A DNA stretch of 64,000 nucleotides. Origin: Pyrobaculum sp. WP30. Its GTDB lineage: Archaea; Thermoproteota; Thermoprotei; Thermoproteales; Thermoproteaceae. The DNA lies in assembly GCA_001189275.1 (NCBI GenBank), contig CP012158.1, positions 620,001 to 684,000 on the forward strand. Direction: 5' to 3'. The position numbers and the translations under genes were made by a program. A model generated the notes under the pieces. The model did no database searches, was not told the DNA's origin, and saw nothing but the letters and a program-made list of their open reading frames with translations. Positions 32,125 through 34,857 of the stretch are shown here, in pieces; within the stretch, counting starts at the first letter, position 1; each line of letters begins with the position of its first letter.

Positions 32125-32985
32125 TTACTCTTCGATAAGTATTGGATTGATATTTAACAACTCAGAAATAGTTAATTGTTTATATTTTTTAGAATTTATA
32201 TCTTGTACATTAATAAATTTATTATTGATACTTATAACCATCATCTCACCCTCCTTGGTTTTTATCAAGTCCCCAGATTTGTACGTAATGACGCGCACAG
32301 AGTAAGTCATGTGGTAAATTTTTCTACCGTCTTTAATCCCCGCGACTTTCGCCGTCTCAATTATGTGGCTGGGGAGCTGGCTGTGTACGGCATACGCCAG
32401 ATGCCGCGCCAGGTTCGCCGAAGTTGTGTATATGTCGAACCCGCTTTTCAATTGTTTAACATTACTTATAAATCCTACTTTTTTATCCTTTAGTTTAAAT
32501 ATTTCTTGTTCTATAATGTTTAGAATCTTTTTCTTGGTTAAATCGTCCAACGCCCTGGGGGTAGACCTTATCTGAACCAAAGCAACCTCCCTCCTGCTTA
32601 GCAACTCTCTACAAGATGTACACACGTCGTATATGTACTCTACAGCCACTTCGTATGCGATGCTCCTCGGCGCTATTAACTGATGCGGCGACCCTCTCAC
32701 GGTGACTTGAGCAACCGCGCCCTCTTCCCTCTCGTCCAGTTCGACCTTTTCAATAACCCCATTTACGGACCCCTTTTCCATCAGAAACTTAACAAGCAGC
32801 TCCGCGGGGTTTTTACTCTTCATCCATTTCCCTCTTAGGAACCAAGCGCCACAGTATTTACACCTCAGCACTTTTCTTTCCTTCAACGCAACCAGGGGAT
32901 GTCTCTCTACGTAGCAGTCTTCACACATACCCTCTATAAGCCTATCGACTAGTCGACCGCAGTAGGGGCAGGGCGTCTTCGCCAC
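32125..32985 (-). CDS. nmd3: archaeal NMD3 homologue, A/T-rich C-terminus
   Basis: Homologue of the eukaryotic 60S export adaptor NMD3; in archaea it probably acts in large-subunit maturation or translation. The N-terminal zinc-binding part shows CPYCGRL (6-12), CEDCYVERHP (20-29), RCKYCGAWF and a later CTSC. The middle has the beta/helical NMD3 core (QVTVRGSPHQL, DIYTTSANLARHLAY). From about residue 230 the DNA becomes strikingly A/T-rich, through to the end and into the 150-nt spacer. It lies 4 nt downstream of the methyltransferase gene and is probably co-transcribed with it. Confidence 0.88.
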   Translation of the reverse strand: MAKTPCPYCGRLVDRLIEGMCEDCYVERHPLVALKERKVLRCKYCGAWFLRGKWMKSKNPAELLVKFLMEKGSVNGVIEKVELDEREEGAVAQVTVRGSPHQLIAPRSIAYEVAVEYIYDVCTSCRELLSRREVALVQIRSTPRALDDLTKKKILNIIEQEIFKLKDKKVGFISNVKQLKSGFDIYTTSANLARHLAYAVHSQLPSHIIETAKVAGIKDGRKIYHMTYSVRVITYKSGDLIKTKEGEMMVISINNKFINVQDINSKKYKQLTISELLNINPILIEE

Positions 32986-32989
32986 AGCT

Positions 32990-33943
32990 CTACCTGGGCC
33001 TCTCTAAATACTTTTTCACCTGAGCCGCTATTGCATACGCCAGAGGCGGCGGCACGCTTTCGCCTACCTGGTTGTATTGTGAGTCCTTTGAGCCGTAGAA
33101 GACGTAGTGGTCGGGGTACCCCATGAGGCGCGCCTGTTCTCTCACTGTCAGAACCCTGTGTTCCTCCGGGTGCACAAACCGTCTCGATCCCATCACAGTA
33201 GGCGCCACGTCGTCCCACGTAAGCCTTATGTAGTTTTCGTAAAACCCGCCGGCGCCTCTGTATCTCATCAACGCCTCCCCAGGCCTCAGCCTAGATATCC
33301 TCTCAAGCTTCTTGGGGCTGAGGGTTGCGGTTTCGTGGTTAGGCAGGTAGCCGCTGTCTGGAGGGGGGAGGTCCGCCAGCGCCTCCCTAACAGTGACGCG
33401 GCGGCTCTTAGGCGGCTTGATCTCCATGTTGGATATAAAAACGCGGCGGCGTCTGCTGGGGACCCCGTAATCCTCCGCGTGTAGGACGTTGAAGTAGACC
33501 TCGTAGCCGATCCTTCTAAACTCCCTCTCTAGGTACGTCCTTAGAGGCTCCTCCGCCAGCGCCGCCACGTTTTCCATCACAAAAACCTCAGGCCCCAGCT
33601 CCCCCACCAGCCTTATGAACTCCAGGGTAAGTTGGCCCGCTGGATCTACATATAGCCTATCTGCCGGGTCCTCCATCCTGTTGGGGTTTGCGGCGGTAAA
33701 TGGCTCGCAGGGAGGGCTCCCGATGACGACTTGGATATCCCCCGCGTATTTCCTCAAGTCTGTGTAGTCTACATTCCTCACGTCTTCTTGAAGCACCACG
33801 GTGCCCCAGTGGTTAGCGCTGTAGGTGCGGGCGGCGTCTCTGTCGATTTCCACGGCTACTCTTATTTTAAACCCCGCCATGGCAAACCCAAGCCCGAAGC
33901 CTCCTCCGCCAGAGAAAACATCGACCACATTCATGTTATACAC
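32990..33943 (-). CDS. DNA (cytosine-5) methyltransferase
   Basis: SAM-dependent DNA C5-methyltransferase. Motif I is DVFSGGGGFGLGF (8-20), motif IV GSPPCEPF with nucleophile Cys79, motif VI VMENV (122-126), motif VIII SRRRRVFI, and motif X QVGESVPPPLAYAIA. The usual PCQ is PCE. The variable region between VIII and IX is short. The start is GTG at 33943 or ATG at 33934. It is divergent from a PD-(D/E)xK-like protein across a palindromic promoter, which suggests a restriction-modification pair, though the specificity is unknown. NMD3 follows after 4 nt. Confidence 0.93.
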   Translation of the reverse strand: MYNMNVVDVFSGGGGFGLGFAMAGFKIRVAVEIDRDAARTYSANHWGTVVLQEDVRNVDYTDLRKYAGDIQVVIGSPPCEPFTAANPNRMEDPADRLYVDPAGQLTLEFIRLVGELGPEVFVMENVAALAEEPLRTYLEREFRRIGYEVYFNVLHAEDYGVPSRRRRVFISNMEIKPPKSRRVTVREALADLPPPDSGYLPNHETATLSPKKLERISRLRPGEALMRYRGAGGFYENYIRLTWDDVAPTVMGSRRFVHPEEHRVLTVREQARLMGYPDHYVFYGSKDSQYNQVGESVPPPLAYAIAAQVKKYLERPR

Positions 33944-33973
33944 TTACTTATAGTAAGTAAAGTATTTAAATAC
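33944..33973. promoter_or_regulatory. operator-like inverted repeat beside a palindromic bidirectional TATA box
   Basis: TTACTTA-TAG-TAAGTAA (33944-33960) is a perfect 7-bp inverted repeat. It is followed at 33962-33973 by gtatttaaatac, a perfect 12-bp palindrome. The TATA palindrome is centred about 25 nt from the GTG of the methyltransferase and 22 nt from the ATG of the nuclease-like gene. The first repeat lies over the methyltransferase start region. This layout suits joint and possibly autoregulated expression of both genes. Confidence 0.55.
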
Positions 33974-33989
33974 AGACCCCGCGGTGTAT

Positions 33990-34577
33990 ATGGACTTCGC
34001 CAAGAGGCTGAAGGTGCGTATAAGCGACATAGTTAGACTTGAGAAGCCCGATGCCTTGAGCTCGCGCTATGGTAAGGCCTTTGAGAAGGCGGTGCTTGTT
34101 TTGTTGAAGGCTAGGGACGCCGTTGCTGCGATCCGCACCTTTATTGAGCACTACGGCGAGCCTCACACGGGAGCCTTCGCGAAGCTGATGAAGCTAACGC
34201 CGTGGGCCAAGAAAGTCGTGGAGGTCGAGCCTGCGCCGCCGGTTGCGTTCCAGATAGACGGAGTCACAGTAACAGCGCAGGCAGATTTCGTGGTGAAGTA
34301 CGTCGACGGCAAGAAGGAGCTGGTGGAGCTGAAGAGCCACATCCTCAGAAAGGAGGAGTGGAAGACGAAGGCGGAGTGGTCCCTCGCAACGAAGATAATG
34401 CGGATGCTGTACAGAAAAGCCGGCTACGACTACCCCCTGCGTTTGATATATTTCGTGGAGAGAGACGGCGCTGTGACGCCGGAGGAGGAGGTCTTTATAT
34501 ACCCCAAAGACGAGAAGGACGACGAGACTCTGCTTAATGTCCTGCGGGAAAGGATTAGGAAGTCTGTAGGCAGGTAA
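33990..34577 (+). CDS. putative PD-(D/E)xK-superfamily nuclease
   Basis: A 195-aa protein. The central sequence TAQADFVVKYVDG followed by ELVELKSH gives Asp99, then Glu113-x-Lys115, with hydrophobic strands on each side. This is the PD-(D/E)xK nuclease active-site arrangement. An N-terminal helix with a conserved-looking Glu (RYGKAFEKAVLVLL) fits the RecB/Cas4-like and restriction-enzyme members. The GTG at 33984 is a possible start; the ATG at 33990 is preferred by TATA spacing. It is divergent from the C5-methyltransferase, so a restriction endonuclease is the first hypothesis. Its 3' end overlaps the convergent 100-aa gene. Confidence 0.65.
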   Translation: MDFAKRLKVRISDIVRLEKPDALSSRYGKAFEKAVLVLLKARDAVAAIRTFIEHYGEPHTGAFAKLMKLTPWAKKVVEVEPAPPVAFQIDGVTVTAQADFVVKYVDGKKELVELKSHILRKEEWKTKAEWSLATKIMRMLYRKAGYDYPLRLIYFVERDGAVTPEEEVFIYPKDEKDDETLLNVLRERIRKSVGR

Positions 34578-34857
34578 AGCGCTGGCGCGCCAGCTCGTAA
34601 GCCGCTTTCACGATGGAGGTTGCGGCGTCTAGCTTGTCTAGGTGCCGGGGCTGTATCACCGCGTTTTCGTCGCCGATCATAAACTCTATTGTGCAGTCCT
34701 CGTCTGACCAGGAAAACACTACAAATACGTAGAGGTCTTCCTTTAGCTGTATCTGGGCAAGCGCCTCGTATTGCCGCCACTCCACCGTGAAGGCCTCTAT
34801 GTCTCTGTCTATCTTCTCCTCTAGTTCTCTAAAAAACTGCTCCACCTTTTGACGCAT
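34555..34857 (-). CDS. hypothetical acidic protein
   Basis: A 100-aa product with an N-terminal amphipathic helix (KVEQFFRELEEKIDRDIEAF), a beta-rich centre (EDLYVFVVFSWSDEDCTIEFMI) and a C-terminal helix. ATG at 34857, with the minus-strand box attttaaag (34877-34885). No family recognised. It overlaps the nuclease-like gene by 23 nt tail to tail and diverges from pheT. Confidence 0.6.
   Translation of the reverse strand: MRQKVEQFFRELEEKIDRDIEAFTVEWRQYEALAQIQLKEDLYVFVVFSWSDEDCTIEFMIGDENAVIQPRHLDKLDAATSIVKAAYELARQRFTCLQTS

Follow-up and report, generated by a model that had tools for sequence, protein, structure and literature searches.

Organization of the Locus

Whether a methyltransferase gene and the divergent gene beside it act together as a restriction-modification unit is the question raised by a locus of Pyrobaculum sp. 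WP30 (genome G000, 1.99 Mb), in which a C5-cytosine methyltransferase stands back to back with a nuclease-like protein of 195 aa, referred to here as NUC. The window analyzed is a stretch of 64,000 nucleotides of this genome. The genera containing the Pyrobaculum and the Thermoproteus records are designated g1 and g2, respectively. G027, G028 and G030 were taken as P. aerophilum, P. calidifontis and P. islandicum, G041 and G042 as T. tenax and T. uzoniensis, and G116 as S. acidocaldarius (DSM639), all of them presumed identities.

Both open reading frames of the divergent pair described in the original prediction were confirmed, with their starts 46 bp apart (Table 1). The main C5 methyltransferase motifs that had been read in the first of them were also present (Cys79 in GSPPCEPF, ENV and GESVPPP), and the protein matched the Pfam profile PF00145 with an E-value of 4.4e-56. 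Its GTG start is backed by a conserved GTG/ATG-TAT-AAC reading across the orthologs.

The spacer between the two genes measures about 46 bp in most Pyrobaculum and Thermoproteus genomes, and is larger in G027 and G040. The AT-rich palindrome TATTTAAATA is located midway in it, 17 nt from the ATG of NUC and 19 nt from the GTG of the methyltransferase, and a similar AT-rich element was observed in the middle of the spacer of most Pyrobaculum genomes when the intergenic regions were aligned. This palindrome is a candidate TATA box and could serve both directions.

Table 1. Features of the methyltransferase and NUC locus, in window positions.
Feature	Position	Strand	Basis
C5-cytosine DNA methyltransferase, 317 aa, GTG start 33943, HG2 ortholog	32990..33943	-	PF00145, orthologs
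Catalytic Cys79 codon in GSPPCEPF (motif IV)	33707..33709	-	Sequence; kept in family alignments
Intergenic region of 46 bp, with the facing starts of the methyltransferase and NUC	33944..33989		Sequence
AT-rich palindrome TATTTAAATA, candidate TATA box	33963..33972		Sequence and alignment of Pyrobaculum intergenic regions
NUC, predicted RecB/Cas4-like PD-(D/E)xK nuclease, 195 aa, ATG 33990, stop ends 34577	33990..34577	+	AlphaFold, Foldseek, 17 orthologs, dN/dS
NUC Glu32 codon, invariant helix glutamate	34083..34085	+	Ortholog alignment
NUC Asp99 codon, predicted metal ligand	34284..34286	+	Alignment and AlphaFold
NUC Glu113-x-Lys115 codons (E-L-K), predicted strand at residues 109-119	34326..34334	+	Alignment and AlphaFold

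Distribution and Family of the Methyltransferase

Orthologs of the methyltransferase were detected in 43 of the 45 genomes of the order, nearly always as a single copy, in 40 of the 43 good genomes of the class, and in other crenarchaeal families. They are 49-89% identical to it over the full length, mostly with one match per genome. This distribution and the match with its single-copy counterpart in G116 assign the enzyme to HG2, a persistent group of orphan m5C methyltransferases that 99 of 100 Crenarchaeota carry (Anton and Roberts, 2023, PMC10609329). Expression in E. coli showed that two members of the group, M.SuaII and M.Asp7I, methylate CCWGG (PMC10609329). HG2 was proposed to be silent under most conditions (Anton and Roberts, PMC10609329), and no m5C was detected by antibody in S. 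acidocaldarius itself (PMC5809426).

The window enzyme resembles M.SuaII and M.Asp7I in being a single-copy, full-length ortholog with the PCE and GE[S/A]VP motifs. HG2 enzymes have been described as orphans with a CCWGG target, whereas this one has a nuclease as its neighbor and clade-specific changes in its target-recognition region, and the genome statistics point to GCWGC. In these statistics, the only evidence used for this comparison, CCWGG was found at 0.67 of expectation and its C-to-T product at 1.42 (wobble C, g1 and g2), the effect at GCWGC being far stronger.

The substitution of PCE for PCQ, along with a short target-recognition region, had been taken as a sign that the recognition site could be unusual. 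The substitution is true, but PCE and GE[S/A]VP are common to the whole aligned family, including the G116 ortholog, and therefore are no mark of an unusual enzyme. A further signature of the methyltransferase, WD[DE]..HPEE, was confined to the NUC-bearing genomes among those aligned. By sequence comparison, the window methyltransferase is a vertically inherited HG2 core gene and not a mobile restriction gene, and it persists without NUC in most crenarchaea.

Fold and Conservation of NUC

NUC was found in 17 of the 45 genomes of the order, all of them belonging to g1 and g2, and a profile search of 300 genomes of the phylum detected it in no other genus. Relatives in viral contigs and plasmids were not found, nor were degenerate copies beside the methyltransferase in the nuclease-free genomes. 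The window protein is 58-88% identical to its orthologs in the 16 other genomes. The Asp99...Glu113-x-Lys115 motif that had been predicted from the letters was confirmed, these three residues and Glu32 being invariant in the 17 orthologs, and dN/dS was approximately 0.03-0.10 in five diverged pairs. NUC is a real gene under strong purifying selection.

Sequence comparison gave only distant relationships. The matches to PF12705 (PDDEXK_1) were weak, with an E-value of 0.00022 for the best family member; single-sequence and profile searches against the PDB sequences returned chance matches only; and the PHROGs yielded only weak Holliday-junction-resolvase and endonuclease matches. An AlphaFold model was obtained with a pLDDT of 84.6 and a pTM of 0.80 (two of the five models above 80), and its comparison with the PDB by Foldseek retrieved Cas4 SSO0001 (E 4.8e-7), as well as the Cas4-like ACE1, RecE, a DinG, AdnAB, RecBCD, AddAB, Exo5 and MGME1. 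All 32 PDB matches with an E-value below 0.001 were RecB/Cas4/RecE/MGME1-like, and no match to a non-nuclease fold appeared. The TM-scores were moderate (0.40-0.61), as is expected of distant relatives. In the model, the core fold carries D...E-x-K on the strands expected of a PD-(D/E)xK enzyme. NUC is thus predicted to be a RecB/Cas4-like PD-(D/E)xK nuclease, and the nuclease assignment of the original prediction was right at the level of the fold.

The likeness to a known Type II enzyme did not hold, NUC being RecB/Cas4-like instead: neither a Type II restriction enzyme nor a Vsr protein was present among the 50 best structural matches. In the CCWGG restriction systems EcoRII and PspGI, an m5C methyltransferase of the CWG type is paired with a PD-(D/E)xK enzyme, but no enzyme of this kind was among those 50 matches, and the avoidance of CCWGG is mild. 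NUC shares with the RecB/Cas4-like nucleases (Cas4 SSO0001, ACE1, RecE, MGME1 and Exo5) the predicted fold, the D...ExK residues and the weak PDDEXK_1 match, but its sequence is too distant for assignment to a family. It differs from Cas4 in lying outside CRISPR loci and in having no cysteines, hence no Fe-S cluster, and the GxxxH and QxxxY motifs are altered (G28-K-A-F-E32; M137..Y141). Therefore, the window protein is RecB/Cas4-like, yet not a Cas4. Nucleases of the RecB/Cas4 kind mostly act from DNA ends without sequence specificity.

Depletion of GCWGC in the Host Genomes

The pentamer GCWGC was not a prior hypothesis, but arose when all 16 4-mer palindromes and 32 classes of 5-mer palindromes were surveyed. 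In host DNA sampled at 120-204 kb per genome, it was the most depleted pentamer or palindrome of the window genome (O/E 0.23), and it reached 0.22 of the expectation (z -16) when shuffled synonymous codons were used as the null. Depletion (0.22-0.65) extended to every one of the eight Pyrobaculum and Thermoproteus genomes that were well sampled; these are related within both genera and do not represent eight independent events. Genus g3 and most other crenarchaea showed no depletion of GCWGC, and GCSGC was normal.

Where the inner C is the wobble base, GTWGC was present at 2.53 times the expected number in the eight g1/g2 genomes and at 0.90 in eight other methyltransferase-bearing genomes. 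For the outer C of GCWGC, the product stood at 1.15 in the same eight g1/g2 genomes, and GTSGC stood at 0.51 (wobble C). An excess of GTWGC is to be expected if m5C has deaminated at G(m5C)WGC. When 244 wobble-C contexts were scanned in the pooled set, GCAGC ranked first and GCTGC second. Both the synonymous-shuffle and the wobble tests used the same genomes as the motif survey. Lineages without NUC exhibited no comparable scar at CCWGG, and under a Markov null no avoidance of CCWGG tied to NUC was seen.

G028, G030 and each of the six Thermoproteus genomes have HG2 as their only C5 methyltransferase. Five of these genomes are complete (G028, G030, G040, G041 and G042); in them, GCAGC ranked first and GCTGC fifth, and the contexts NCAGG and NCCTG scored nearly as high as GCWGC; therefore, the signal is less isolated there than in the pooled set. 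G033 and G036 carry the methyltransferase, NUC and the signature, yet GCWGC was found at 1.21 and 1.24 in them, in samples of only 16-19 kb.

In a separate observation on the sampled Thermoproteus loci of G040-G042, C was depleted and T enriched at wobble positions that precede AGG or stand in NCCTG contexts, a strong bias exemplified by CCCTG (0.32, with its product at 2.66). CTAG was also considered as a Vsr-like signature and rejected: it stood at 0.79 in the NUC genomes versus 0.94, but phylogeny confounds this difference and CTWGG does not follow it.

GCWGC in Viral Genomes

The viral genomes were obtained after GCWGC had emerged from the host survey, and served as an independent check of the motif. 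In the genes of the Pyrobaculum and Thermoproteus viruses PSV, PSV2, TTSV1 and TSPV1, GCWGC occurred 5 times versus 119 expected, three of the four viruses having none, and its C-to-T product was not in excess. Selection against a restricted site would leave just such a near-absence without an excess of the C-to-T product. GATC was avoided as strongly in the same four globuloviruses (14 versus 156 expected), and these viruses must therefore face at least one other restriction system. TCGA was low in their genes too (59/181).

No avoidance of GCWGC was detected in the Sulfolobus virus STSV1. In the Acidianus two-tailed virus ATV (first 49 kb), it was the most avoided palindrome, with 2 occurrences versus approximately 33-34 expected. 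Neither NUC nor a methyltransferase similar to M.ApeKI was found in the sampled Sulfolobales, and since NUC was not found outside g1 and g2, other GCWGC systems exist. The Aeropyrum provirus APOV1 showed no avoidance of GCWGC, though its host has ApeKI. In the genes of this provirus, CCGG occurred 0 times versus 38 expected.

The virus data likely point to a GCWGC-restricting activity among the hosts, without singling out a gene for it. Because of the scar and the virus statistics, both m5C at GCWGC in vivo and restriction activity at this site are likely in the Pyrobaculum and Thermoproteus clade; the restriction role originally proposed for the pair is suggested, indirectly, by the depletion in hosts and the near-absence in viruses. 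Hyperthermophiles are expected to avoid m5C, since heat deaminates it, but the C-to-T scar indicates that m5C was probably made at GCWGC in vivo for long enough to reshape these genomes.

Possible Function of the Pair

The reading preferred here, at a probability of roughly 0.4, is that the two genes constitute a vertically inherited restriction-modification unit of Pyrobaculum and Thermoproteus, built on the core methyltransferase. HG2 in the g1/g2 lineage would methylate GCWGC at its inner C, and perhaps CCWGG as well; a single promoter region would drive both genes, and NUC would destroy DNA without the GCWGC mark. This destruction of unmarked DNA would select viruses without the site and keep the methyltransferase active, the price being the deamination of m5C at high temperature. 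The role of HG2 as the maker of the mark rests on elimination, as it is the only C5 methyltransferase in several depleted genomes, and that of NUC as the enforcer rests on the linkage and on the clade-specific signature of the methyltransferase. Confidence was held at this level because of G033 and G036, which lack the depletion, and because of the end-processing character of RecB/Cas4-like nucleases. Of the compact restriction-modification module of the original prediction, the C5 methyltransferase, the divergent linked pair and the nuclease fold stood, but the methyltransferase is a core gene present without NUC in most crenarchaea, and the pair is not mobile.

A more specific history is conceivable, if rather doubtful: in Pyrobaculum and Thermoproteus, the core m5C methyltransferase may have moved from CCWGG to GCWGC or extended its target to the latter, and a RecB/Cas4-like nuclease, newly recruited as its restriction enzyme, may have locked it on, the cost being an erosion of m5C throughout the genome at high temperatures of growth. 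Should HG2 set the mark and NUC enforce it, a near-universal orphan methyltransferase would have a function in one clade that can be tested, and restriction would be added to the end processing for which this clade of nucleases is mainly known.

The linkage of the two genes bears on an alternative that is unlikely but survives best, namely that they are co-inherited and functionally separate, HG2 being an orphan epigenetic methyltransferase and NUC a lineage-specific nuclease for the processing of DNA ends or flaps, kept as neighbors by an old syntenic locus. The methyltransferase was beside NUC, and divergent from it, in all 17 NUC genomes, as the original prediction would have it; because the methyltransferase is near-universal, this strict co-occurrence is weak evidence. 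The whole ICDH-GNAT-NMD3-methyltransferase-NUC block is syntenic in both genera, and adjacency alone is therefore weak evidence as well. Separate functions would also agree with a methyltransferase that manages without NUC in most crenarchaea, with the uniform RecB/Cas4/RecE/MGME1 type of the best structural matches (32 of 32), and with the Thermoproteus genome G040, the only one in which an ORF of 237 aa with a hydrophobic N-terminus (L166 7510-8223) lies between the two genes and parts their promoters. However, the pair remains intact where the flanks are interrupted or rearranged (G027 and G033), the promoter region is short and symmetric, NUC coincides with the methyltransferase signature, and GCWGC restriction in Thermoproteus would be left without a gene. 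Across genome pairs, the identity of one protein is correlated with that of the other (r 0.85), as vertical co-inheritance predicts, and the pair is vertically inherited, not mobile.

Another source of the mark was considered in the ApeKI system. M.ApeKI of Aeropyrum pernix methylates the second C of GCWGC at C5 (PMC8557920), so that the site and methylated base inferred for the window enzyme are the same, also in a hyperthermophilic archaeon; M.ApeKI has PCQ and 56.4 kDa as expressed, whereas the window enzyme has PCE and 317 aa and belongs to HG2. A patchy family of C5 methyltransferases of approximately 440-500 aa, which agrees with M.ApeKI as described, was detected in the four Pyrobaculum genomes G000, G027, G029 and G031. 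The member in G000 (444 aa, PCQ; L001 398-3562, approximately 919.1-922.2 kb) is unrelated to HG2 and adjoins the gene of an HhH-GPD DNA glycosylase (PF00730, E 1e-10), and a convergent ORF of 357 aa without a Pfam family is found at the same locus, which looks like a true restriction-modification plus T:G-repair module of the ApeKI/MIG kind. Such a methyltransferase can explain the scar in the four genomes that carry it. That a mobile system of this kind, moving through the hosts, left both the scar and the virus avoidance, with HG2 and NUC unrelated to GCWGC, would also fit ATV, which shows a GCWGC system outside the clade, but is distinctly improbable. No methyltransferase of this family was found in the six Thermoproteus genomes, G028 or G030, yet the depletion or scar extends to G028, G030 and G037-G042 (0.22-0.65, with small samples for G037-G039); such a methyltransferase could account for the scar there only through repeated losses in recent times.

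Finally, it is very improbable that NUC is a Vsr-like repair nuclease fixing the T:G mismatches that arise from deaminated m5C of the methyltransferase: the arrangement resembles Dcm/Vsr of E. coli in that an m5C methyltransferase adjoins a small nuclease of the PD-(D/E)xK superfamily, HG2 orthologs share the Dcm target CCWGG (PMC10609329), the genomes bear signs of deamination pressure and the Vsr family (PF03852) is absent from the 45 genomes of the order, but NUC has no Vsr homology and no Vsr structure among its 50 best matches, most NUC genomes show heavy C-to-T loss at GCWGC and not over-correction of the Vsr type, CTWGG is not depleted, and most NUC genomes already carry a gene of the NucS/EndoMS type, a known T:G mismatch nuclease.

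Two further genes adjoin the pair. On the NUC side, a protein of 100 aa without a Pfam or NCBIfam family is encoded at 34555-34857, convergent with NUC and overlapping its end; it is kept in Pyrobaculum, but no copy was detected next to the NUC gene of Thermoproteus. On the methyltransferase side, the NMD3-like gene (32125-32985) has an AT-rich 3' end and evolves much faster than its neighbors, its product being 34-61% identical to most of its orthologs in both genera, where the identity of the methyltransferase is 62-85%.
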